The position numbers and the translations under genes were made by a program. Under the pieces are notes generated by a model, which saw only the letters and a program-made list of their open reading frames with translations, was not told where the DNA came from and made no database searches. Of a stretch of DNA of 64,000 nt, positions 535 to 21,634 are shown piece by piece; positions within the stretch are counted from its first letter, which is position 1, and the number at the start of each line of letters is the position of its first letter. Origin of the DNA: Thermalbibacter longus (GTDB lineage: Bacteria; Chloroflexota; Chloroflexia; Thermomicrobiales; Thermomicrobiaceae); assembly GCF_023806485.1 (NCBI RefSeq), contig NZ_JAMSLR010000003.1:186001-250000 (forward strand), written 5' to 3'.

Positions 535-1677
535 TCACCGGGCGATCAACCCGAGCGCCTCGGCGATGACCAGATAGCGGTCGCGGGGACGTCGCCCCTC
601 CTGCAAGTAACGATAGACGTGGACAAGCCGATCAGCGGTGAAGATGCCGCGGTAGCGCCCGTGCTCGACCACCGGTATCGAGGGGTGACCGCTCGCCAGC
701 ATGCGCTGGTGCGCGTCGTAGACCGAGGTGTCGACGTTGACCGTAACTACACTGGGGTCCATCACCTCCCGCACCAGCAGGCGACTGCCCACCTGGACGT
801 TGCGGAGGATGTCCTCTCGCCAGAGCATGCCGACGACTTTGCCCCCACTCACCACTGCCACATCGCGTGGCCCTCCCCGCAGCGCGTAGCGCAGCTCCTG
901 ATCCGGCCCGACTCCGCCCATGTCCCAGACGGCGAACTGGCCAACCGGCAGCCGCTGCATCGCTTGCTCTACCTCGATAAGCCGCGCCTCGACGGTTGCG
1001 GCGGCCAGCAGGAAGAGTGCCAGCAGCGGGAGCATCAGATCGCGGAGGAGAATGCCCGCGATCAGCAGCCCGAGCGCGAGCAAGTAGCCGAGTGAAACCG
1101 CAATGCGGGTAGCCATCAACCGGTCGCTCATCCAGCTCAGCCAGGCGCGCAGGATGCGGCCGCCGTCCATCGGGAACGCCGGCAACAGATTGAAGAGCGC
1201 CAGCAGCATGTTCGCTAGCCAGACGAGAAGCAGAAGGCTGCTGGGGCTGGTCTCCTGCGCGATGAGGAGAACGTCGAGCGGCTCGCGCACGCCCCGCCAC
1301 AGTAGCATGCCGACGAGCGCGGGCGTGAGGCCAGCCGCGACCACGAGGTTGAGCAGTGGGCCGGCCAGTGCCACCATGGCTTCGCTCCGCGGCGACAGCG
1401 GCGTCTGCTCGATGCGGGCTACGCCACCGATCGGCAGCAGCGTGATGTCCTGCACTTCCAACCCGTAGCGCTGGGCCAAAAACGAGTGGGCCAGCTCGTG
1501 CCCGGCCACGCTGACGAAAACCGCCAGCAGCAGGAACCCACCGAACAGCGCTCCGACCAGTGGATCATGCGCTGACCGCCCCCAGTGCCAGAAGACCCAG
1601 AGCAGGGCGATCACGACGGTCGGGTGAACCCGTACCTCGACCCCGCCGATCTTGCCGATGCGAAACCCGCGCCCCAT
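535..1677 (-). CDS. Site-2 protease family (M50) zinc metalloprotease with CBS domains
   Basis: Intramembrane metalloprotease of the SpoIVFB/S2P type, expected in the cytoplasmic membrane. With the chosen ATG at 1677 the protein is 380 residues. The zinc motif HELAH is at residues 60-64 and the third-ligand motif FPMDGGR around 168-174, with several hydrophobic helices between residues 20 and 225. The C-terminal part (about 240-380) reads as a CBS pair (VREVMDPSVVTVNVDTSVYD and a following repeat), which usually senses adenine nucleotides. The frame is open upstream to 1899, but family homologues start at MGRGFRIGKI and a GGTGG-rich ribosome site precedes 1677. The substrate is unknown. Confidence 0.88.
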   Translation of the reverse strand: MGRGFRIGKIGGVEVRVHPTVVIALLWVFWHWGRSAHDPLVGALFGGFLLLAVFVSVAGHELAHSFLAQRYGLEVQDITLLPIGGVARIEQTPLSPRSEAMVALAGPLLNLVVAAGLTPALVGMLLWRGVREPLDVLLIAQETSPSSLLLLVWLANMLLALFNLLPAFPMDGGRILRAWLSWMSDRLMATRIAVSLGYLLALGLLIAGILLRDLMLPLLALFLLAAATVEARLIEVEQAMQRLPVGQFAVWDMGGVGPDQELRYALRGGPRDVAVVSGGKVVGMLWREDILRNVQVGSRLLVREVMDPSVVTVNVDTSVYDAHQRMLASGHPSIPVVEHGRYRGIFTADRLVHVYRYLQEGRRPRDRYLVIAEALGLIAR

Positions 1678-1997
1678 TCCACCCGACCACTCTTGCTCGT
1701 CCCGAATGACCTGCTCAGAATATCGGCGCCGATGGGCAGCGCCGATAGCTGTACTTAATGTATAGAACGAATGAACTCCTGTCACCGGTGCGGGGCAGCC
1801 GCGCACCGCCTCTAGCATACCAGGATCCGCCGAGATGGCCGTATACGGTGGCAAATCGTGGTCTGAGGCGCCGGCGGTCGTGGCGCCCCGCCGCGCCACC
1901 GTCGCTCAACCGCGCACAACCTCCACTTCGCTCATCCGCTCCTGGCAGATCTGGCACTGGTCTCAGGAAACTCCCTGTACGAACGCGCTCTCTCCGT

Positions 1998-4581: not shown

Positions 4582-5637
4582 TCAAATGCTCGCATAGTAC
4601 TCGGCGAGTCGTTCACGCGCGATCCGCCGGAGCTTGCGCAGCGCCTCGTTCTCGATCTGGCGCACCCGCTCGCGACTAATATTGAGCAGGTCACCGACTT
4701 CGGCCAGCGTTCTCGGCTGGCCGTCGGTCAGGCCGAACCGGAGTTGCAAGACCAGCCGCTCGCGCGGGCTCAGCGCCTCGAGCGCTTCGAGGATATCGCG
4801 TCGCATCAGCGACTCCTCGGCGATCTCCTCCGGCGACTGCGACACCTCGTCGGCGATCAGATCGCCTAGGCTCGTCTCGTCCTCCTCGCTCAGCGGGCGG
4901 TCGAGCGACACCGTGCGCTGGGCGGCCCGGACGATCTGCGCGATCTTCTCCGGCTGCACGCTCAGAGCCTCGGCGATCTCTTCCGGCCGGGGCTGGCGCC
5001 CGAGTTCCTGGGCGAGCTGGGTCACCACGCGGTGGTAGCGCGTGATGCTGTCGGTCATGTGGACCGGTAGCCGGATCGTCCGGCCCTGGTCGGCGATAGC
5101 TCGGGTAATCGCCTGCCGGATCCACCAGGTGGCGTACGTGCTGAAGCGATAGCCGCGTTGCCAGTCGAACTTCTCCACAGCGCGCATCAGCCCGATGTTC
5201 CCCTCCTGGATGAGGTCCAGGAGCGACAGGCCCCGGCCAACGTAGCGCTTGGCGATGCTCACCACCAGGCGGAGGTTAGCGCGCACGAAGCGTTGCAGCG
5301 CCTCCATGTCGCCGGCTTTGATCCGCTTCGCCAGCTCGACCTCTTCCTCGGGCGTCAGCAGCGGCGCTTCGGCGATCTCGCGCAGGTAAAGCCGCAGCGG
5401 GTCGCTGACGACTGATGGGTCTTCGCGCAGCAGCTCGTCGAGGTCCTCCTCGAGCAGGACTGGCTCGGCCTCGACGACCTCCGCGTCTACTGGCTCCGGC
5501 AGCGCCGGCTCCGCCTCGAGGGATTCCAGCTCGTCTTCCACCGGCGACGTATCAGCGGGCGCTGTGTCCTCTCCAGGCGAGTCGTCACGGCGGCTGCGGT
5601 GCGGGCGTTGCGGATCTCGCCGTCGGTTTCGGCTCAT
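4582..5637 (-). CDS. sigA: RNA polymerase sigma factor, RpoD/SigA family
   Basis: Primary-type sigma factor that directs RNA polymerase to -35/-10 promoters. From the ATG at 5637 the protein is 351 residues. An acidic N-terminal tail (about 1-75) replaces a full region 1.1. Region 1.2 follows ([20 protein letters not shown], about 79-98), then region 2 with the [19 protein letters not shown] core and the [19 protein letters not shown] melting/-10 segment, region 3 ([12 protein letters not shown]) and region 4 ending in [20 protein letters not shown]. Two ATGs (5646 and 5637) lie close together; a GGAGG 9 bp before 5637 favours the latter. A palindromic AGTATACT at about 5782-5789 in the divergent gap could supply a -10 element. 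It may be the housekeeping sigma or a close RpoD paralogue. Confidence 0.93.
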
Positions 5638-5822: not shown

Positions 5823-5859
5823 GTCGCATCCTCCGCTTGGGGAGGATGAGGATTGAAAG
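5823..5859 (+). repeat. Solitary CRISPR-repeat-like hairpin, far from the array
   Basis: This 37-nt stretch matches the consensus repeat of the array at 19558-21634 at 32 of 37 positions, in the same strand orientation. Differences fall at repeat positions 4, 13, 14, 16 and 37: three are in the hairpin loop and one each at the edges. Both 8-nt stem arms (CATCCTCC and GGAGGATG) and the AGGATTGAAA part of the 3' handle are unchanged. It occupies the divergent gap between sigA and rad50, ending 22 bp before the rad50 start. No second repeat flanks it, so it is not an array. It may be a relict repeat, a crRNA-like RNA source or a hairpin in the rad50 leader. Confidence 0.85.
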
Positions 5860-11440: not shown

Positions 11441-13678
11441 TTGTTAAGCAGGAATTTGAGGGTCGGTGATATCCCTGTTCTCTATGCGCACACGCCCAAC
11501 GCGGCGGGGCACTGGGATCTGCTCCACGAACACCTGCGGCGGGTGGCCGAGCGCGCCGCCGAGTTCGCTCGGCCCTTCGGGGGAGAGGCAATCGCGTATC
11601 TTCTCGGGATTTTTCACGACCTGGGAAAGGCTAACCCGGCCTTTCAGGAGTACCTGCGCGAGGCGGCAGCGGGACGCCAGAGAAACTCTGTCCCACACGC
11701 CAAGTACGGGGCGACGCTAGCCTATAGTGCGCTGTTCCATCATGGCCGGGAACCTGAGCGCTGGAAAGAGCTTGCCCTTCCGGTCGGCGCACACCACTCT
11801 GAGCTCGCGTGTGGCGGCACTTACGCTCAGGATCTCGGCCAGTGCTTGGATAAAGATACGGCCGTACTCGAGGCTATCTACGGCTACCTTCGCGTAGCGG
11901 GCGCCCGCGGCTGGTGGCAGCTTCCGAAACTCGATCTCGCCAAACTTCCGAAGCCAAACACAACCTCCCGAGAACTGTTCATCCGCATGCTGCTCTCGGT
12001 CCTGGTCGACGCTGACCGGTTGGACACCGAGGCGCACTTCGACGCCGCTCGAGTCACGCTCCGCCGTACCTGGCCCGAACTCGAGACGCTCTGGGAGCGG
12101 TTGGAGGCTGCTCAGAAGCGGCTACTGGCCGAAGCGAAGGATTCCGTCGTCAACCGCGTGCGGCGCGAGGTGTACGAAGCCTGCCTGCGCGCGGCCGAAG
12201 GCCCTCCGGGCATCTACCGCCTGACGGTGCCGACGGGTGGTGGCAAGACCCGGAGCGGGCTAGCCTTCGGGCTGCGGCATGCGCTGCGCCACGGCTTGCG
12301 CCGGATCGTCGTTGCCCTGCCGTACACGAGCATCATCGACCAGACAGCGACGGTCTACCGGCAAATCCTCGGCGAGGACTCGGTCCTGGAACATCACAGC
12401 GATTTCGAGCTTAAAGCGCGCGAGAGCCGTGATGAGGAGCGAAACGAGGCTCAGGACGAGGCCTACCTGCGCTGGCAGCTCGCGACCGAGAACTGGGATG
12501 CGCCGCTCATCGTCACCACCACTGTGCAGCTCTTCGAGAGCCTGCTCGGCAACCGGGCGTCCCCCGTGCGCAAGCTGCACAACTTGGCTCGCAGCGTGAT
12601 CATCCTCGACGAGGTTCAGACGCTGCCGCCCGAACTCCTCTCTCCGACCCTAGACGTCCTCCGCTGCCTGGTCGAGGGATACGGCGTTACGATTGTGCTC
12701 TCCACGGCGACACAGCCGACGTTCGAGGAGAGCCGTCTTCTCCGCGAGCTCGACGGCTATGAGATCCGCGAGATCGTCGAGGGCTACGCCGAGCATTTCC
12801 GGTTGCTGGAGCGCGTAGAGTACCGCGTGCTGCATGAGCCTGTCTCCTGGCAGGAGCTGGCGGACGAGATTCGCTGGCGTCACCAGGTCATGGTGATCCT
12901 CAACACCCGCCGCGACGCGCTGGCGGTGCTCGATCAGTTGGATGAAGACGAGGATGTTTTCCATCTCTCGACGCTGCTCTGCGGCGCGCATCGACGGGAG
13001 CTCCTGCAGGACATCGAGGAGAGGCTGAAAGGGGGTGAACCGGTTCGCCTGGTAAGCACCCAGGTCGTGGAGGCCGGCGTGGATCTCGACTTCCCGGAGG
13101 TGTGGCGGGCCATCGGCCCGCTCGATCGGATCGTCCAGGCGGCCGGCCGCTGCAACCGGGAGGGCAAGCGCGAGCGCGGGCAGGTCGTCATTTTCGAGCC
13201 CGCTGAGGGCGGGACACCGCGCGGCCCGTACCTCATCGGCCTCGAGAAGGCACGGTTCCTGCTCAGAGAGCATCCGGCGGAATCGCTGAACCGGCCTGAT
13301 CTGTACCGTCTCTATTACCGCCTGCTGTTCGACGCGGTAAATCCCGATAAACAACGTATCCAGGCGCTGCGGTCGGAGCTGAACTATCCAGAGGTGGCCG
13401 AGAAGTACCGGTTGATCGCCGACGACACGCTGCCGGTTCTCGTTTCCTGGGGCGCCGCCGAGCGGCGGCTTGCGGAGTGGCGGGCCAAGCCCAGCCGTGC
13501 CGCCTGGCGCCGCCTGCAGCCGTATCTGATCAGCCTGCGGCGGAACGACCTGGAGCGCTTGCGCAGGGAGGGCTGGGTGGAGCCGATAACCGAGGCCATG
13601 TACCGCTGGTGCGGGCAATACCACGAGCGACGGGGGATCGTTGCAGCAGTTCACGACCCGAGCGACTTGATCGTCTGA
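11441..13678 (+). CDS. cas3: CRISPR-associated nuclease/helicase Cas3 (type I-C)
   Basis: Effector of type I interference: recruited to Cascade-bound DNA, it nicks and unwinds the target 3'-5'. The 745 residues carry an N-terminal HD nuclease domain (YAHTPN, then IFHDLGKANPAFQEYL and the later HH pair in GAHHSEL). The superfamily 2 helicase has Walker A TVPTGGGKTRSG, a DEVQ motif II in ILDEVQTLPPELL, motif III STATQP and motif VI QAAGRCNREG. The start is probably the TTG at 11441 or the TTG at 11456, since no ATG fits the HD start; the latter has an AGGA just upstream. A 206-bp gap holding a crRNA-like element separates it from cas5. Confidence 0.95.
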   Translation: MLSRNLRVGDIPVLYAHTPNAAGHWDLLHEHLRRVAERAAEFARPFGGEAIAYLLGIFHDLGKANPAFQEYLREAAAGRQRNSVPHAKYGATLAYSALFHHGREPERWKELALPVGAHHSELACGGTYAQDLGQCLDKDTAVLEAIYGYLRVAGARGWWQLPKLDLAKLPKPNTTSRELFIRMLLSVLVDADRLDTEAHFDAARVTLRRTWPELETLWERLEAAQKRLLAEAKDSVVNRVRREVYEACLRAAEGPPGIYRLTVPTGGGKTRSGLAFGLRHALRHGLRRIVVALPYTSIIDQTATVYRQILGEDSVLEHHSDFELKARESRDEERNEAQDEAYLRWQLATENWDAPLIVTTTVQLFESLLGNRASPVRKLHNLARSVIILDEVQTLPPELLSPTLDVLRCLVEGYGVTIVLSTATQPTFEESRLLRELDGYEIREIVEGYAEHFRLLERVEYRVLHEPVSWQELADEIRWRHQVMVILNTRRDALAVLDQLDEDEDVFHLSTLLCGAHRRELLQDIEERLKGGEPVRLVSTQVVEAGVDLDFPEVWRAIGPLDRIVQAAGRCNREGKRERGQVVIFEPAEGGTPRGPYLIGLEKARFLLREHPAESLNRPDLYRLYYRLLFDAVNPDKQRIQALRSELNYPEVAEKYRLIADDTLPVLVSWGAAERRLAEWRAKPSRAAWRRLQPYLISLRRNDLERLRREGWVEPITEAMYRWCGQYHERRGIVAAVHDPSDLIV

Positions 13679-13684
13679 GCCGCC

Positions 13685-13769
13685 AAAGAGAAGAGATCGG
13701 GCATCAGCCCGATCTGAACCGACGGCGAAACCGTTTCGATCCCCGGCCTGCTGGCCGCGTTACAAGGAT
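13685..13769 (-). ncRNA. Candidate crRNA-like RNA (degenerate mini-CRISPR) in the cas3-cas5 gap
   Basis: Read on the minus strand. A 5-bp hairpin (CGGCC-AGCA-GGCCG, 13757 to 13744) is followed at once by GGGATCGAAAC (13743 to 13733), which matches the 11-nt array handle AGGATTGAAAC at 9 of 11 positions. Next come a 17-nt spacer-like stretch (13732 to 13716) and a perfect 9-bp hairpin (13715 to 13694) with a TGAT loop, followed by CTTCTCTTT, which looks like an intrinsic terminator. No gene on the minus strand would otherwise use that terminator. The upstream part of the repeat does not resemble the array repeat, and no clear minus-strand promoter was found. Transcription and processing are inference. 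Confidence 0.5.
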
Positions 13770-13811
13770 ATCATCCATGCTGTGAAGACTGAACCTACGG
13801 CTAAACGCAAC

Positions 13812-13840
13812 TTGACAGCAGCCCTGCCGACGGCTATCAT
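13812..13840 (+). promoter_or_regulatory. Strong predicted sigma-70 promoter of the cas5-cas8-cas7-cas4-cas1-cas2 operon
   Basis: Consensus TTGACA (13812-13817), a 17-bp spacer and TATCAT (13835-13840) predict a start near 13847, 38 bp before the GTG of cas5. This gives the Cascade and adaptation genes a promoter separate from cas3. A TTC trinucleotide at 13844-13846 followed by GGTCTCTCC lies exactly at the predicted start and partly matches the crRNA-like spacer described in the same gap. Confidence 0.75.
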
Positions 13841-13884
13841 TGATTCGGTCTCTCCATGACACCCAAGAAGGGAGCACGCTGCCC

Positions 13885-14583
13885 GTGAACCACGCTGAAG
13901 TCGGGGTGAAGGTCTGGGGGGAGTACGCCCTCTTCACCCGGCCTGAGTTCAAGTCCGAGCGCGTCAGCTACCAGGTCATCACTCCCTCAGCCGCGCGCGG
14001 CCTGTTGGAGGCAATCTTCTGGAAACCTCAGATCCGCTACGAGATCCGCCGCATCGGTGTGCTCCGCCTGGGAACCTTCACTACGATCCTGCGCAACGAG
14101 ATCGAGCAGCGACAGGGGACGAGGCCGATCTTCGTTGAGGATGTCCGGCAACAGCGCGCCAGCCTCGTCCTCAAGGACGTTGCCTACCTCATCCACGCGG
14201 AGATCGTCCCGCAGCCGTGGGAGAAGGAACCGGTTGTTAAATATCTCGACCAGTTCACCAGGCGGCTGCTTCGGGGCCAGTACCACCACACACCCTACCT
14301 GGGCACGCGCGAGTTCTCCTGCGCCTTCGAGCCTCCCGACGAGGAAACCCCCGACCCTGCGCTGAACCTCGATCTCGGTCTCATGCTATTCGATATTGCC
14401 TACGTCCCTAGTCGAGAGCGCCGCGAACTCGAGTTCATCCGCCACACCCCACAAGGGCCAGAGCGGACCTCCGGATATGCCCAGGCACTCTTCTTCCCCG
14501 CTAAGATCGAGAGCGGCTGGCTCACGGTACCGCCGGAGAAATATCGCGAACTCGCCCGCCTGGAGGAGCGAGCAGATGTTTAA
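13885..14583 (+). CDS. cas5c: CRISPR-associated protein Cas5c (Cas5d), pre-crRNA endonuclease of type I-C
   Basis: In type I-C systems, which lack Cas6, Cas5 cuts the repeat RNA at the base of its hairpin and stays bound to the 11-nt handle. The 232-residue protein begins at GTG 13885 behind a GGGAG site; the upstream ATG at 13840 overlaps the promoter -10 and is rejected. Family features include VWGEYALFTRPEFKSERVSY, the PSAARGLLEAIFWKP helix and the C-terminal glycine-rich part TPYLGTREFSCAF. The handle it would leave from the array repeat is AGGATTGAAAC, 11 nt, as expected for I-C. It overlaps cas8c by 8 bp. Confidence 0.93.
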   Translation: MNHAEVGVKVWGEYALFTRPEFKSERVSYQVITPSAARGLLEAIFWKPQIRYEIRRIGVLRLGTFTTILRNEIEQRQGTRPIFVEDVRQQRASLVLKDVAYLIHAEIVPQPWEKEPVVKYLDQFTRRLLRGQYHHTPYLGTREFSCAFEPPDEETPDPALNLDLGLMLFDIAYVPSRERRELEFIRHTPQGPERTSGYAQALFFPAKIESGWLTVPPEKYRELARLEERADV

Positions 14584-16426
14584 GGAACTCGTCGATCTCG
14601 GCCAGGAGCTCGAATCTCGGGGCACGCTCGTCCCGGCCGGCTTCTATGCGTACGGTCAGCCTATCCGCTGGATCGTCCACGTCTGGCCCAACCGCGTCTA
14701 CCTGGAGAAGACTGACCTCAACCGCCCACGCCCCTTCGATGGTCGAACGTCGGCGATCCGTGCCCATCCCCTGACTGACGAGGCGGGCTACGCGCTCGGC
14801 GTCGCCAGGCAACAGAAGGGTGTGGACAAGCGAGCTGGCGACAAGCACCGAGCCTTTCGCGCCCTGCTGGAGAAGCTGCTCGCTTCACCCCAGGTCAGTG
14901 ACCCGGCGCTGCGAGAGGCCATAGGCTGGGTCCTGCATGCCCTAGAGACCGGACTCGTGCAGCAGGACCCGCGCTACGACGAGGTCGAGTCCAAGGACTG
15001 GGTTTCGTTCGTCCCCGGCCAGGGGCCATACGCGGGCCAGCACCTCTTCGAACATCCCGAGGTCAAGGCGTTCTGGCTGGCCGAGCTCGAGGATCGTACA
15101 GCCTCCTCAGAGCGTGCTGGTAACTCCTCTGGAGCATGCGCCGTCTGCGGAGCGAACCTTCCACTGGTGAGGCGGATGCCAAAGGTCAAGCTGGTCAGCA
15201 CAGCTCCCTTGCACTCGCTGAACGCCGATGCCTTCGTCTCCTTCCACGCGGGGGCGGGCATCGCCGAGCACGCGCACCTCGGTATCTGTTTTGTCTGCGC
15301 GGATACCGCAGCGCGGGCATTCACCCACCTCGCGGACAGTGATCAGCACCGGCGTGTCCTCCTCTACGACAGCAACAGCCGCGATGCTCTTACCAACCAG
15401 ATCGCGCTCTTCTGGCTCAAGGCTCGGGCCAGGGTTCAGGCCGGTGAGGAGATCTTTGATCCTGCATCGCTCCTCAACTTGGTCAGTAGCGTGCTCGCGC
15501 CGGAACAGCGCGCCGATCAGGCCCCTACTGCCTCGCTACCGCAACTCGCCCGGCTGCTCGATCTCCCCTGGCGGCCCGAGGAGGCCGGCCTGAACCTGGA
15601 CGAGTGCGGCTTTTACCTGGCCATCCTCTCGCCGAACGTCGGCCGGATCGCCGTTCGTGACTGGATCACGGTCTCGCTCGCCCAGCTTCGCGAGAACCTG
15701 CGCCGTTTCCTTTCAGCCACATCCATCGTCTCGCCGTGGGGCGAGAGGGTGAGCCCCCAGTCCATCGCCCGGCTCCTGCAAGCGGCTCAGGCCACGAATC
15801 CGAACCTGACGCGGGGTCTCTTGCGCTGTGCCTATCTCGGTGAGAGTCCACCGCCAGGGCTGCGTGACGCGGCAGTCCTCCGCTTTCGGATCCCGTCTGT
15901 CCTCCAGGATCCTCGCGAAGGTTGGCGTGTCCAGGCACTGGCAAGCGCGCTCAAGCTCGTTGTCTTCTATGGGAAGGAGGAAGCACGCACGATGGACAGG
16001 TTATCAGCACAGCACAATCGCAGTGCCTACCTCTGTGGCCGCCTGCTGGCAATCCTCGAGGAGGCCCAGCTCCGCGCCGCCAACTTCAATCTCAACCGGA
16101 CGATCGTCGATCGGTTCTATGGAGCCGCCTCGACCGCGCCAGCGGCGACCTTCGGTGGGCTCATCAGGCTGGCTACCGTGGCCCACCTGCCCGAGGTGGG
16201 CCGGGACGTTCGAATCCTGCTGGAGGATGTGCTCTCGATGCTCGACGAGGCCGGCGGATTTCCGCGAGTGCTGACGCTGCCTGAACAAGCCGAGTTCGCT
16301 CTTGGCTTCTACCACCAGCGGGCGGACTTCCGCTCCCGGCGTGGACGGCGTGCAGCAGACGAGGCGATAGGCGGTGGCCCAGGTAACCAGGTGGCGGATT
16401 CTGGAGAAGAGGAGGTCACAGGATGA
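14576..16426 (+). CDS. cas8c: CRISPR-associated protein Cas8c (Csd1), large Cascade subunit of type I-C
   Basis: Large subunit that recognises the PAM and, through an internal start in some systems, also yields the small subunit. From ATG 14576 (GGAGGAG site upstream, overlapping the cas5 stop) the protein is 616 residues, typical of Csd1. The N-terminus MFKELVDLGQELESRGTLVP fits the family. Two CxxC pairs, CAVCGANLPL near residue 185 and CFVCAD near 240, form the usual zinc-binding element. The C-terminal part is helical (NRSAYLCGRLLAILEEAQLR). It ends in an ATGA overlap with cas7c, showing tight translational coupling. Confidence 0.93.
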   Translation: MFKELVDLGQELESRGTLVPAGFYAYGQPIRWIVHVWPNRVYLEKTDLNRPRPFDGRTSAIRAHPLTDEAGYALGVARQQKGVDKRAGDKHRAFRALLEKLLASPQVSDPALREAIGWVLHALETGLVQQDPRYDEVESKDWVSFVPGQGPYAGQHLFEHPEVKAFWLAELEDRTASSERAGNSSGACAVCGANLPLVRRMPKVKLVSTAPLHSLNADAFVSFHAGAGIAEHAHLGICFVCADTAARAFTHLADSDQHRRVLLYDSNSRDALTNQIALFWLKARARVQAGEEIFDPASLLNLVSSVLAPEQRADQAPTASLPQLARLLDLPWRPEEAGLNLDECGFYLAILSPNVGRIAVRDWITVSLAQLRENLRRFLSATSIVSPWGERVSPQSIARLLQAAQATNPNLTRGLLRCAYLGESPPPGLRDAAVLRFRIPSVLQDPREGWRVQALASALKLVVFYGKEEARTMDRLSAQHNRSAYLCGRLLAILEEAQLRAANFNLNRTIVDRFYGAASTAPAATFGGLIRLATVAHLPEVGRDVRILLEDVLSMLDEAGGFPRVLTLPEQAEFALGFYHQRADFRSRRGRRAADEAIGGGPGNQVADSGEEEVTG

Positions 16427-17310
16427 GCATCACCAATCCGAAGACCCGGCACGAGTTCGTGCTGCTCTTCGATGTCGTCAACGGCAACCCGAACGGCGAT
16501 CCTGACGCGGGCAACTTGCCCCGGGTCGATCCCGAGACGATGCACGGCCTGGTTACCGACGTAGCCCTGAAGCGCAAGGTCCGTGACTACGTGCAGAACC
16601 TCCAGCGCGACGAGGTAGGGAACCCGGCAGAAGGTTACGGTATCTTCATTCAGAGCCGGGTCGCGTTGAACATGCTGATCGAGCAGGCCGGCGATGCCGT
16701 GGGCATCAAGCAGAAGAGCAAGGTTCCCCAGGATGCGGTTCGCGTCGAGCTCTGTCGACGGTATTACGATATCCGCCTGTTCGGCGCTGTGCTCTCGACT
16801 GGCGACTTAAACGCCGGTCAGGTTCGTGGACCCATCCAGATCACCTTCGCGCGTTCTCTGCATCCGGTCGCCCCGCTCGACCTGTCGATCACGCGTAAGG
16901 CTCGTACGACCGAGGAGCGGATGCAGACGGGCGAGACAGAGATGGGCCGCAAACCCATCGTCCCGTACGGCCTCTATCGGGCTCACGGGTTTTTCAATCC
17001 TTACCTGGCCGAGCAGACAGGAGTGAGCGAGCGCGACCTCAAGCTCTTCTGGGAATCGATGCAGAACCTGTTCGAGTTCGACCGCTCGGCGGCGCGGGGC
17101 GAGATGGCCGTGCGCGGGCTCTTCGTTTTCACTCATGACAACCCGAAAGGCAACGCTCCTGCCCACAAGCTCTTCGAGTTGGTCCAGGTGCGCCGGCTCG
17201 ACGATGGGCGGCCGCCACGCTCATTTGGCGAGTACGAGATCGTCGCGCCACCGGCCGGCCCACTCCAAGCGCATGGCTTTCCGGGTATCACCCTCACTCG
17301 CCTGGTCTGA
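16423..17310 (+). CDS. cas7c: CRISPR-associated protein Cas7c (Csd2), Cascade backbone of type I-C
   Basis: RAMP-fold protein that polymerises along the crRNA spacer to build the Cascade backbone. The 295-residue length and the N-terminal EFVLLFDVVNGNPNGDPDAG and LPRVDPETMHGLVTDVALKR are diagnostic of Csd2. A thumb-like segment (VLSTGDLNAGQVRGPIQITF) and the conserved YGLYRAHGFFNPYLAEQTG follow. It starts within the cas8c stop codon (ATGA) with a GAGGAGG site. A 61-bp gap separates it from cas4. Confidence 0.95.
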   Translation: MSITNPKTRHEFVLLFDVVNGNPNGDPDAGNLPRVDPETMHGLVTDVALKRKVRDYVQNLQRDEVGNPAEGYGIFIQSRVALNMLIEQAGDAVGIKQKSKVPQDAVRVELCRRYYDIRLFGAVLSTGDLNAGQVRGPIQITFARSLHPVAPLDLSITRKARTTEERMQTGETEMGRKPIVPYGLYRAHGFFNPYLAEQTGVSERDLKLFWESMQNLFEFDRSAARGEMAVRGLFVFTHDNPKGNAPAHKLFELVQVRRLDDGRPPRSFGEYEIVAPPAGPLQAHGFPGITLTRLV

Positions 17311-17371: not shown

Positions 17372-17989
17372 ATGGAATGGGACGACGATGACCGGATCCC
17401 GATTAGCGCCCTCCAGCACTTCGTCTACTGCCCACGCCAGTGCGCGCTCATCCACCTGGAGCAGGCCTGGGAAGAGAATGCCTTTACCTTGCGAGGACGA
17501 CGCGCCCACCAGGGCCTGGATATTCCAGACGGCTTGATCCGCGAGGGCGTCCGGGTCGAGTATGCCGTACCCCTCTGGTCCGATACTCTCGGGCTGAGTG
17601 GGCGGGCCGACGTGGTCGAGTTTCCCGACGGCGTGCCCTACCCCGTGGAGCATAAAGTCGGGTCACGCCGGGCGAGCCGGGCCGACGAGGTGCAGCTTTG
17701 CGCCCAGGCGCTGTGTCTCGAAGAGATGCTGGGCGTCGCGGTACCACGCGGAGCGCTCTTCTATCGCGCTTCCCGGCGCCGCCGGGAAGTCCAGTTCACC
17801 CCGGAGCTGAGGCAACGCGTCTACGAGGTGATCGAGGCTGTTCGTACGCTCCTTTCTCAGACTAGCTTGCCCCCGCCGGTGGCGGACGAGCGCTGCCCCG
17901 ACTGCTCGCTGATCGAGATCTGCCAGCCATATGCCCAAGCAGCCTTGGGCGAGCTTGTGGCTTCGCTCCGAGAGGAGGGTCTGAGTTGA
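17372..17989 (+). CDS. cas4: CRISPR-associated exonuclease Cas4
   Basis: Iron-sulfur RecB-like nuclease that trims prespacers and selects their PAM end during adaptation with Cas1-Cas2. The 205 residues include the first cluster cysteines at 20 and 24 (FVYCPRQCALIH) and the C-terminal cysteines in RCPDCSLIEIC (about 172-180). The nuclease core has GRADVVEF and an EHK motif, with QLCAQALCLEE after it. It lies between cas7c and cas1, and its stop overlaps the probable TTG start of cas1, consistent with a Cas4-Cas1 complex. Confidence 0.93.
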   Translation: MEWDDDDRIPISALQHFVYCPRQCALIHLEQAWEENAFTLRGRRAHQGLDIPDGLIREGVRVEYAVPLWSDTLGLSGRADVVEFPDGVPYPVEHKVGSRRASRADEVQLCAQALCLEEMLGVAVPRGALFYRASRRRREVQFTPELRQRVYEVIEAVRTLLSQTSLPPPVADERCPDCSLIEICQPYAQAALGELVASLREEGLS

Positions 17990-19056
17990 GATCATCTGCC
18001 CCGAAACAGCCGTCGAGCAGCGCGATGGGTCGCCCATCGGTGACAACACTCCTCAACACGCTCTTCGTGCAATCACAGGGCGCGTACCTGCGGCTGGATC
18101 ATGATACTGTGCGGATCGAGATCGACGGGCAGCCGGTCAGGCAGATCCCACTGCACCATCTGGACGGGATCTCCGTGTTCGGTAACGTACTGATCTCGAC
18201 TGCGCTGCTGCACCGTTGTGCCGAAGATGGGCGCAGCGTCACCTGGTTCGACACTCACGGACAATTCCGTGCCCGGCTCAACGGACCGATCTCCGGCAAC
18301 GTGCTGCTGCGCCGAGCCCAGCACTCAGCGCTCGATGACCCCGAGCGCACGCGCGCGCTCGCGTCCCAGTTCGTCCATGGCAAGCTGAGGAACGCGCTCT
18401 CCGTGCTCCAGCGCGCCAATCGTGAGTACGGCGGTGGGCCCCTGCTCGAAGCCGCCATTCGTGAACACCGCAACGCGCTCCGGCTACTCCCCTCCGTGCA
18501 GACGCTCGACGAGATCCGCGGCATCGAGGGAGTAGCAGCGACGAGCTACTTCGCGGCCTTTTCAGAGCTGGTGCGAGCGGGAGACCTGCCGTTCAGCGGC
18601 CGGACGCGTCGCCCTCCGCGCGATCCGGTCAACGCGGTGCTCTCGTTCGCCTATTCGCTGGTAACTCGTGACAGCATCGCAGCCCTGGAAGGCGTGGGGC
18701 TCGATCCGCAGATCGGCTATCTGCACGCGCTGCGGCCCGGCCGACCGGCCCTGGCGCTCGACTTGGTGGAGGAGCTTCGCCCCTGGCTGGCCGATCGCCT
18801 TTGCCTGACGCTAATCAACCGTCGACAGTTGACCCCACGCAACTTCGAGAGCCGACCAGGCGGGGCGGTGCATCTGACCGAAGAGGGGCGTCGCGAAGTC
18901 ATCACCGCATACCAGCGGCGCAAGCAGGAGACAATCAGTCATCCGCTGTTCAAGAGCCCGATCCCGATCGGGCTCGTCCCGCACGTGCAAGCGCGGCTCC
19001 TAGCCCGGTACCTGCGGGACGATCTCCCTCTCTACCCGCCATTCCTGCCGAAGTAG
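17986..19056 (+). CDS. cas1: CRISPR-associated integrase Cas1 (type I-C)
   Basis: Integrase subunit that inserts new spacers at the leader end of the array. The 356-residue frame contains TLLNTLFVQSQGAYLRLDHD, the catalytic glutamate region GIEGVAATSYFAAFSEL, the histidine in HALRPGRPALALDLVEELRP and the following acidic residues, so all metal ligands seem present. Two starts are possible: TTG 17986, which overlaps the cas4 stop and has a strong GAGGAGGG site, or ATG 18025, which better matches the usual N-terminus but lacks a ribosome site. cas2 follows after 21 bp. Confidence 0.94.
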   Translation: MRSSAPKQPSSSAMGRPSVTTLLNTLFVQSQGAYLRLDHDTVRIEIDGQPVRQIPLHHLDGISVFGNVLISTALLHRCAEDGRSVTWFDTHGQFRARLNGPISGNVLLRRAQHSALDDPERTRALASQFVHGKLRNALSVLQRANREYGGGPLLEAAIREHRNALRLLPSVQTLDEIRGIEGVAATSYFAAFSELVRAGDLPFSGRTRRPPRDPVNAVLSFAYSLVTRDSIAALEGVGLDPQIGYLHALRPGRPALALDLVEELRPWLADRLCLTLINRRQLTPRNFESRPGGAVHLTEEGRREVITAYQRRKQETISHPLFKSPIPIGLVPHVQARLLARYLRDDLPLYPPFLPK

Positions 19057-19077
19057 TAGGCACGCGGGGGCTGTCCG

Positions 19078-19377
19078 ATGCAGCGGTTTGACATTCTGGT
19101 GACCTACGACGTTGCGATCACGACGAAGGCAGGACTACGGCGGCTCCGCAAAGTTGCGACCGTCTGCCAGAACTATGGACAGCGTGTTCAACTCTCGGTG
19201 TTCGAGTGCCGCGTGACGCTGGCGCAGCTCGAGCAGCTCGAGTCCGAGCTACTGTCCATCATCGACCCGAAGAACGACAGCCTGAGGATCTATGTGCTGT
19301 ACGGAGGGCGGAACCGGTCGCTACGCGCGCACGGGCTGGATCGGTATGTGGACTTCGATGAGCCGATGGTTCTGTAA
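19078..19377 (+). CDS. cas2: CRISPR-associated protein Cas2
   Basis: Small ferredoxin-fold protein that bridges two Cas1 dimers in the spacer-integration complex. The 99 residues start MQRFDILVTYDVAITTKAGL, with the conserved VTYDV strand and the VCQNYGQRVQLSVFECRVT segment typical of I-C Cas2. The C-terminal strand GLDRYVDFDEPMVL is present. It is the last gene of the cas operon and is followed by the leader. Confidence 0.95.
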   Translation: MQRFDILVTYDVAITTKAGLRRLRKVATVCQNYGQRVQLSVFECRVTLAQLEQLESELLSIIDPKNDSLRIYVLYGGRNRSLRAHGLDRYVDFDEPMVL

Positions 19378-19557: not shown

Positions 19558-21634
19558 GTCACATCCTCCCTTCGGGGAGGATGAGGATTGAAACCTGCGG
19601 GACCGCGCCCAGCGCTTCGCCCAGCAGGTGTCACATCCTCCCTGCGGGGAGGAGGAGGATTGAAACAATTCGAAGCCCGAGCCGTCGATCCTCGCGGTGG
19701 TCGTCCCATCCTCCCTTCGGGGAGGATGAGGAGTGAAACAATTCGAAGCCCGAGCCGTCGATCCTCGCGGTGGTCGTCCCATCCTCCCTTCGGGGAGGAT
19801 GAGGATTGAAACAATTCGAAGCCCGAGCCGTCGATCCTCGCGGTGGTCGTCACATCCTCCCTTCGGGGAGGATGAGGATTGAAACTTGCCGGTACGGATC
19901 AGACTCCAGTACGAGCGGCGTCACATCCTCCCTTCGGGGAGGATGAGGATTGAAACCGCTCTGTGCGACCTCGCTGTAAGACCCGACGGAACGTCACATC
20001 CTCCCTTCGGGGAGGATGAGGATTGAAACGTCCGCTGGGTCGAGGAGACCGACGCGGACACGGTCGTCACATCCTCCCTTCGGGGAGGATGAGGATTGAA
20101 ACCGTTCCAACGGGACATTACCCGCTGGGCGCTGCGTGTCACATCCTCCCTTCGGGGAGGATGAGGATTGAAACAACGCCTGGTTCCGGACGGGCGGCGT
20201 GCTGCAGAAGTCACATCCTCCCTTCGGGGAGGATGAGGATTGAAACTTCGTCTCGACGAGCGACGTCGTCGTGAACCGCCCGGTCACATCCTCCCTTCGG
20301 GGAGGATGAGGATTGAAACGCCGTTGCTGTCGAGGAGCAAGCTGAGTCGATCGAAAGTCACATCCTCCCTTCGGGGAGGATGAGGATTGAAACCGCATCA
20401 CGTTGTCGTAGATCGCCCGCTCGGCGGTGTCACATCCTCCCTTCGGGGAGGATGAGGATTGAAACTATGGGATGCTCCAGGGAGAGCTTAGTGCACCGGC
20501 GGTCACATCCTCCCTTCGGGGAGGATGAGGATTGAAACAACTGCTCGACAACGGCGGTAACAACCTCGGGGTCGCGTCACATCCTCCCTTCGGGGAGGAT
20601 GAGGATTGAAACGATAGCGAGCCAGGTGCCACTCGGCATCGAGGTCAGAGGTCACATCCTCCCTTCGGGGAGGATGAGGATTGAAACATGCCGACGATCG
20701 AGCCCTTGACCAGGTCAAAAGCCGTCACATCCTCCCTTCGGGGAGGATGAGGATTGAAACTCCCTGCGCCATGCCCGGCTGCCACAGCGGCTGGCCGGTC
20801 ACATCCTCCCTTCGGGGAGGATGAGGATTGAAACAGCGACGGCTTACGACCTGGGTGCGCGCTAAACAGGGTCACATCCTCCCTTCGGGGAGGATGAGGA
20901 TTGAAACTTCGGTGGCGAGCTGGATCTGGATCGCGACCGGGTCACATCCTCCCTTCGGGGAGGATGAGGATTGAAACGACACCCTCGAGGTGATGGGCGC
21001 GGTGGCTGAGCGGTCACATCCTCCCTTCGGGGAGGATGAGGATTGAAACTGCTTGAGAAATTAGTACTCGATCACTCGGTACTTGTCACATCCTCCCTTC
21101 GGGGAGGATGAGGATTGAAACGGCTTGCCCGTGCCGATGCCCTCGCGGTACCAGTAGAGTCACATCCTCCCTTCGGGGAGGATGAGGATTGAAACCGGAC
21201 GCTCTACAACGAGCTCGTCGGTGGATCGATGTCACATCCTCCCTTCGGGGAGGATGAGGATTGAAACGTCGAGGGGCAGAGTCTCCGGATCGATCCGTAC
21301 GGTCACATCCTCCCTTCGGGGAGGATGAGGATTGAAACACCAGGTGGCGGCCGAATGCGGGCTGGGCCTGCTAGTGTCACATCCTCCCTTCGGGGAGGAT
21401 GAGGATTGAAACAGCTCTACCAGGAAGTCGCCGTACGTCCGGCGCTTGGGTCACATCCTCCCTTCGGGGAGGATGAGGATTGAAACCTGGCTACGTTTGC
21501 GGCCGGGAAGGGCCTCCAGATCGTCACATCCTCCCTTCCGGGAGGATGAGGATTGAAACTGGATCGTGCTGCCGTAGTAGATATCGACGGTCGTGCTGTC
21601 ACATCCTCCCTTCCGGGAGGATGAGGAAGGTGTT
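19558..21634 (+). CRISPR. Type I-C CRISPR array: 29 repeats of 37 nt, 28 spacers of 33-38 nt
   Basis: Repeats run from 19558-19594 to a truncated copy at 21598-21634. Each starts GTCAC, forms a 9-bp stem (CATCCTCCC with GGGAGGATG) closed by a TTCG tetraloop, and ends in the 11-nt handle AGGATTGAAAC. Exceptions are at the ends. Repeat 2 (19630) has changes at positions 15 and 25. Repeat 3 (19703) has A4C and T31G, and repeat 4 (19776) has A4C. Repeats 28 and 29 have a TTCC loop, and repeat 29 loses the last seven bases of its handle, marking the trailer end. Spacers 2, 3 and 4 (19667, 19740, 19813; 36 nt) are identical; the other spacers look unique. Confidence 0.98.

Follow-up and report, generated by a model that had tools for sequence, protein, structure and literature searches.

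Does the gap between cas3 and cas5 in this type I-C CRISPR-Cas locus of Thermalbibacter longus hold a guide with which Cascade controls the synthesis of its own subunits? The window, i.e. the whole stretch of 64,000 nucleotides that was analyzed, contains a complete type I-C locus (cas3, cas5c, cas8c, cas7c, cas4, cas1 and cas2, together with an array), in which 206 bases separate the cas3 stop (13678) from the cas5 GTG (13885). A first-pass annotation had placed in this gap a natural crRNA-like guide for self-repression by Cascade. That idea proved to be the best supported of those considered here, but the target proposed for the guide did not stand, the real match being found at 13807-13791, near the -35 box of the cas5 promoter (Table 1). 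As judged from sequence comparison, we consider it likely that the element is a CreR-type crRNA-like RNA through which type I-C Cascade represses cas5-cas8-cas7-cas4-cas1-cas2.

Table 1. Features of the cas3-cas5 gap and its surroundings (window coordinates, except for the three peptide genes, which carry the coordinates of their own loci)
Feature	Coordinates	Strand	Remarks
cas3 (HD nuclease + helicase)	11441..13678	+	
Intrinsic terminator, AGATCGGGC-TGAT-GCCCGATCT + CTTCTCTTT	13685..13715	-	found by scan
17-nt guide (pseudo-spacer), GGTTTCGCCGTCGGTTC	13716..13732	-	
11-nt 5' handle, GGGATCGAAAC	13733..13743	-	9/11 identical to array handle AGGATTGAAAC
Hairpin of degenerate repeat, CGGCC-AGCA-GGCCG, 5 bp	13744..13757	-	directly abuts handle, like the 9-bp stem in the array repeat
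Candidate guide-RNA promoter, TTCACA-16-TGTAAC	13759..13786	-	weak, 9/12; start site uncertain
Target protospacer, CGTTTAGCCGTAGGTTC	13791..13807	-	14/17 identical to guide
PAM position of target, TTG	13808..13810	-	non-consensus for I-C
cas5-operon promoter, TTGACA-17-TATCAT	13812..13840	+	11/12 consensus
cas5c, GTG start	13885..14583	+	type I-C crRNA-processing subunit
cas8c	14570..16426	+	start approximate
cas7c	16423..17310	+	
cas4, cas1, cas2	17372..19377	+	
CRISPR array, 29 repeats	19558..21634	+	37-nt repeat GTCACATCCTCCCTTCGGGGAGGATGAGGATTGAAAC
Hydrophobic peptide gene, L029 (Streptomyces)	4615-4743		directly downstream of element's target
Hydrophobic peptide gene, L091 (Streptomyces)	1618-1743		directly downstream of element's target
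Hydrophobic peptide gene, L095 (Streptomyces)	1605-1739		directly downstream of element's target

The array provides the standard against which the gap can be read: its repeat is predicted to fold into a 9-bp stem abutting the last 11 nucleotides, AGGATTGAAAC, which, given what is established about Cas5c processing, would be the 5' handle of the type I-C crRNA. The same arrangement is present on the minus strand of the gap, just as the first-pass annotation had described it: the hairpin (13757-13744) runs straight into a handle-like sequence (13743-13733), and the 17-nucleotide stretch that follows is closed by a 9-bp hairpin (13715-13694) and CTTCTCTTT, which a scan recognized as an intrinsic terminator and which stands where a second repeat would be. 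Shuffling the gap produces a 9/11 handle by itself about 5% of the time, whereas one that is directly abutted by a perfect stem of 5 bp or more arose in just 7 of 20,000 shuffles, so that the repeat-like part exceeds chance; the element is real. Outside the array, the combination of handle and abutting stem is seen elsewhere in the window only at a standalone repeat (5823-5859). Apart from its handle and stem, the element is degenerate (19/37 identities with the array repeat overall), and the canonical array unit, i.e. two intact repeats around a spacer of 34-37 nucleotides, is absent, a single repeat-like unit being followed by the terminator. In the predicted RNA fold the handle pairs with the guide, which could hinder loading.

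The standalone repeat at 5823-5859 (plus strand) is nearly intact (32/37, with stem and handle kept) and is the sole close copy of the repeat outside the array in the whole genome; its neighbours are an rpoD-like sigma gene on the minus strand and an SbcC-like gene on the plus strand. The 17 nucleotides that follow it have no convincing target in the genome: the sole masked genome match lies inside a coding gene, with GTG at the place of the PAM, and was judged to be due to chance. Within the array, the same spacer, AATTCGAAGCCCGAGCCGTCGATCCTCGC, occupies three consecutive units (19630-19841) with repeat variants around them, which is a local duplication of the array.

The guide of the gap element was compared with the gap itself, with the whole window and with the 3.6-Mb genome. 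When the promoter stretch was shuffled 20,000 times, 9 of the shuffles reached the 14/17 identity that the guide shows with the protospacer at the cas5 promoter; the mismatches between guide and protospacer fall at positions 1, 6 and 12 only, and identity extends to positions 18-19, two bases into the terminator stem. When 6 and 12 are ignored and position 1 is left out, the resulting pattern, GTTTNGCCGTNGGTTC, is matched perfectly at exactly two places in the 3.6-Mb genome, namely the guide and its target, the next-best copies having 2 mismatches and a frequency not above that of a reversed control pattern. No further target came to light, whether ahead of cas3 or elsewhere: nothing else in the window scored above 12/15, and every other site in the genome had 2 mismatches or more. 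The consensus PAM of type I-C is TTC; a comparison of the array spacers with phage records, from which the PAM was to be derived, gave no protospacer match. The positions of two of the mismatches recall what is known of other type I effectors, in which bases 6 and 12, every sixth base, are unpaired; in the Thermotoga I-B complex a mismatch at position 6 is without effect, and a mismatch at position 1 nearly abolishes binding by a type I-B effector (PMC13199841). The CreA of H. hubeiense pairs at positions 1-5 and 7-11 (PMC8501985).

The geometry of the target site bears directly on the question of repression. No shuffle of the region yields an equal of the cas5-operon promoter. This promoter, which is internal and does not include cas3 among its genes, reads directly into cas5, the 5' leader being about 38 nucleotides long. 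Between the PAM position of the target and the -35 box lies just a single base, which would bring bound Cascade up against the promoter. On the opposite strand, the expected start of the candidate guide-RNA promoter would fall inside the hairpin loop. The cas5 leader also contains a ten-codon open reading frame, ATGACACCCAAGAAGGGAGCACGCTGCCCGTGA (ATGACACCC...CCGTGA; 13856-13888, plus strand), whose stop overlaps the GTG start of cas5.

From these features we infer transcription, loading, binding, repression and feedback as follows. The gap would give rise to a short minus-strand RNA comprising the degenerate repeat (stem-loop and 11-nt handle), a guide of 17-19 nucleotides and the terminator. 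Cas5c would either trim this RNA or bind at the base of its stem, and within I-C Cascade the RNA would take the position of an array crRNA. The loaded complex would bind at 13807-13791, right next to the -35 box of the cas5-cas8c-cas7-cas4-cas1-cas2 promoter, and block this promoter as well as, probably, that of the guide itself. Its R-loop would extend over much of the weak candidate guide-RNA promoter. Because pairing stops after 19 positions, Cas3 should not be recruited and the chromosome should remain uncut. The more free Cascade there is, the stronger repression would become, and it would ease once array crRNAs or anti-CRISPRs had taken that Cascade up; repression that tracks spare Cascade by crRNA competition has been described for CreR (PMC12737573).

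Self-control of CRISPR by a crRNA-like guide is a known strategy, probably encountered here in type I-C. The original CreR study, said to have appeared in Cell Host & Microbe in 2023, reportedly dealt with types I-B, I-E and V-A. In the literature that was searched, no published type I-C CreR turned up. CreRs are cas-regulating crRNA-like RNAs (PMC12737573, PMC12948488). Like them, the window element joins a degenerate repeat to a short guide that partly matches the cognate cas promoter, it is accompanied by no toxin gene, and autorepression by the effector is predicted; the sequence features of CreR that are present comprise an off-array repeat with a handle, a match to a cas promoter, tolerance at 6 and 12, and a complete effector; the PAM at its target, TTG, departs from the I-C consensus. 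Unlike them, it belongs to type I-C, where the repeat would be handled by Cas5c instead of Cas6, it consists of one repeat and a terminator instead of a mini-CRISPR, and it sits between cas3 and cas5, its target promoter being internal. The one-repeat CreA of Haloarcula hispanica offers an anatomical parallel, with one degenerate repeat, a guide and a T-rich terminator (PMC8501985), and the break in pairing at position 6 has its counterpart in the related H. hubeiense CreA (PMC8501985). However, the target in the window is the cas5 promoter and not a toxin, as it is for the CreA of CreTA, the system is type I-C and not I-B, and identity extends to position 19, versus about 11 in CreA (PMC8501985). 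Racrs, the repeat-mimicking anti-CRISPR RNAs of phages, which include RacrIC1 (PMC10651486), likewise are solitary repeat-like RNAs expected to load into type I-C proteins, but the window element lies inside a host cas locus and its guide matches a local promoter.

We also asked whether such elements recur in other type I-C loci. Type I-C cas5 loci were gathered from public genomes, plasmids and relatives, which gave 96 regions, each covering 720 bases upstream of and into cas5. The rule applied called for a handle at least 7/10 identical to GGATTGAAAC, for the next 17 nucleotides to be at least 14/17 identical to another place in the region, and for TT in the PAM. This rule is blind to positions 6 and 12; several of the loci were first found with a score that ignored these two positions, and the rule, run later, returned the same set. 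It singled out 8 of the 96 I-C regions before cas5, as against 1 of the 620 control tiles taken from these loci (Fisher, P = 6e-7; 4e-6 without the window locus). Besides the window, these loci come from Puniceicoccales (L023), Opitutales (L038), Streptomyces (L029, L091 and L095) and Saccharopolyspora (L033 and L117, same genus), and with three Streptomyces and two Saccharopolyspora members the eight are not all independent. Across them, 14 of 21 mismatches fall at 6 or 12 (binomial, 5e-9), the PAMs are TTC (three), TTT (two), GTT (two) and TTG (the window), and inspection by eye showed that in all eight the guide is followed by a terminator-like hairpin sequence and not by a second repeat.

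It is the kinship among these loci that makes covariation visible: within the three Streptomyces loci, as within the two of Saccharopolyspora, the handle and terminator are kept while the guides differ, each matching its own target, so that guide and target change together. The first-pass annotation had asked for conservation of the handle and of the target pairing in related I-C loci; guide and target do covary in other loci, but the nearest relatives lack the element. Indeed, none of the I-C loci of the same genus, family or order carries one, and in Thermus, the closest relative by Cas5, cas3 and cas5 are adjacent, which leaves no room for it. No close relative of the window locus was found, and the covariation thus speaks for this kind of element and not for the copy in the window. 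Two loci deserve separate mention. L064, from the same phylum as the window, has a weaker candidate (971, plus strand, and 1033, minus strand) with a 7/10 handle and with guide positions 1-5 and 7-11 matching a TTG-flanked site. In the Opitutales locus L038 (4843-4992), the target of the element lies about 17 bases after a TTGACA and before a 49-aa open reading frame upstream of cas5; this element could be CreTA-like or a CreR.

The recurrence also helps to weigh the other explanations of the window element. The two similar 17-mers (13732-13716 and 13807-13791) might be a pair of sites for an ordinary DNA-binding regulator, the likeness to the handle being incidental. The two are indeed direct repeats, spaced 75 bp from each other and unique to the cas5 promoter region, which also contains palindromic stretches and, inside the promoter spacer, a third partial copy, CCGACGGC. 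Such a reading is nevertheless quite improbable: handle, abutting stem and terminator align with a crRNA, the mismatches include 6 and 12, and the layout is found again ahead of cas5 in unrelated I-C loci whose guides and targets are entirely different, something that one regulator cannot explain. Another doubt concerns function. Counted against a CreR are the TTG PAM, the mismatch at position 1, the fold of the handle onto the guide, the weak 9/12 minus-strand promoter and the degenerate repeat, and we could be looking at the decaying remnant of a once-working crRNA-like element, inactivated by its PAM, its position-1 mismatch and its degenerate repeat. The non-consensus PAM, the mismatch in the seed and the weak promoter would fit this history, but stem and terminator are intact, all other guide-target pairs are kept and changes otherwise occur at the unread positions 6 and 12 only, and we hold decay to be unlikely.

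The remaining alternatives retain a guide and give it another target or another purpose. It might be an antitoxin-type guide of the CreA kind, set over a tiny toxin transcript and not over the cas operon. The homologous elements of Streptomyces do precede a conserved gene for a hydrophobic peptide of 41-44 aa, and the window does have a mini-ORF, the ten-codon frame at 13856-13888, as a candidate toxin. However, cas5 follows directly on the promoter, the mini-ORF lacks a ribosome-binding site and shows, by eye, no run of rare codons, and no open reading frame of at least 25 aa in the window both begins downstream of the promoter and terminates ahead of cas5, all of which makes a toxin here very improbable. 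Lastly, the first-pass annotation had aimed the guide at the transcription-start region (13847-13857), behind the plus-strand TTC at 13844. The sequence there, TTC-GGTCTCTCCAT, is as it was described, with a canonical PAM and 8 of the first 11 bases matched. The seed mismatches at 4 and 7, a match that stops after position 11 and a score of 8/15 once 6 and 12 are disregarded, which four other places in the gap equal, nonetheless mark 13844-13857 as a chance-level target, and a guide directed to it is barely credible.

While the CreR-type reading is the one we favour for the window, the Streptomyces loci suggest a different one. In these, a hydrophobic peptide of 41-44 aa, conserved across strains, is encoded between cas3 and cas5, and the targets of the elements lie at the start of the peptide gene, not at cas5; no Pfam family scored above the cut-off for the peptide. 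By analogy, what occupies the same genomic slot here may possibly be a type I-C toxin-antitoxin pair resembling CreTA, made up of peptide and element. We further propose, tentatively and at slightly less than an even chance, that in type I-C a one-repeat guide with a terminator, handled by Cas5c, has evolved repeatedly in the cas3-cas5 gap, and that this slot switches roles between a CreR, i.e. a cas5 autorepressor as in the window, and a CreTA, i.e. an antitoxin to the peptide as on Streptomyces plasmids. This CreTA-like side result is perhaps the more novel of the two.

If the CreR-type reading is true, RNA-guided self-control reaches a CRISPR subtype that is widespread and lacks Cas6, and its control point would be an internal promoter that parts the effector and adaptation genes from cas3. 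The simple sequence rule used here can serve to find such elements in other genomes, and the guide-target pairs that covary strain by strain form a ready set with which to ask how much pairing represses without triggering Cas3.
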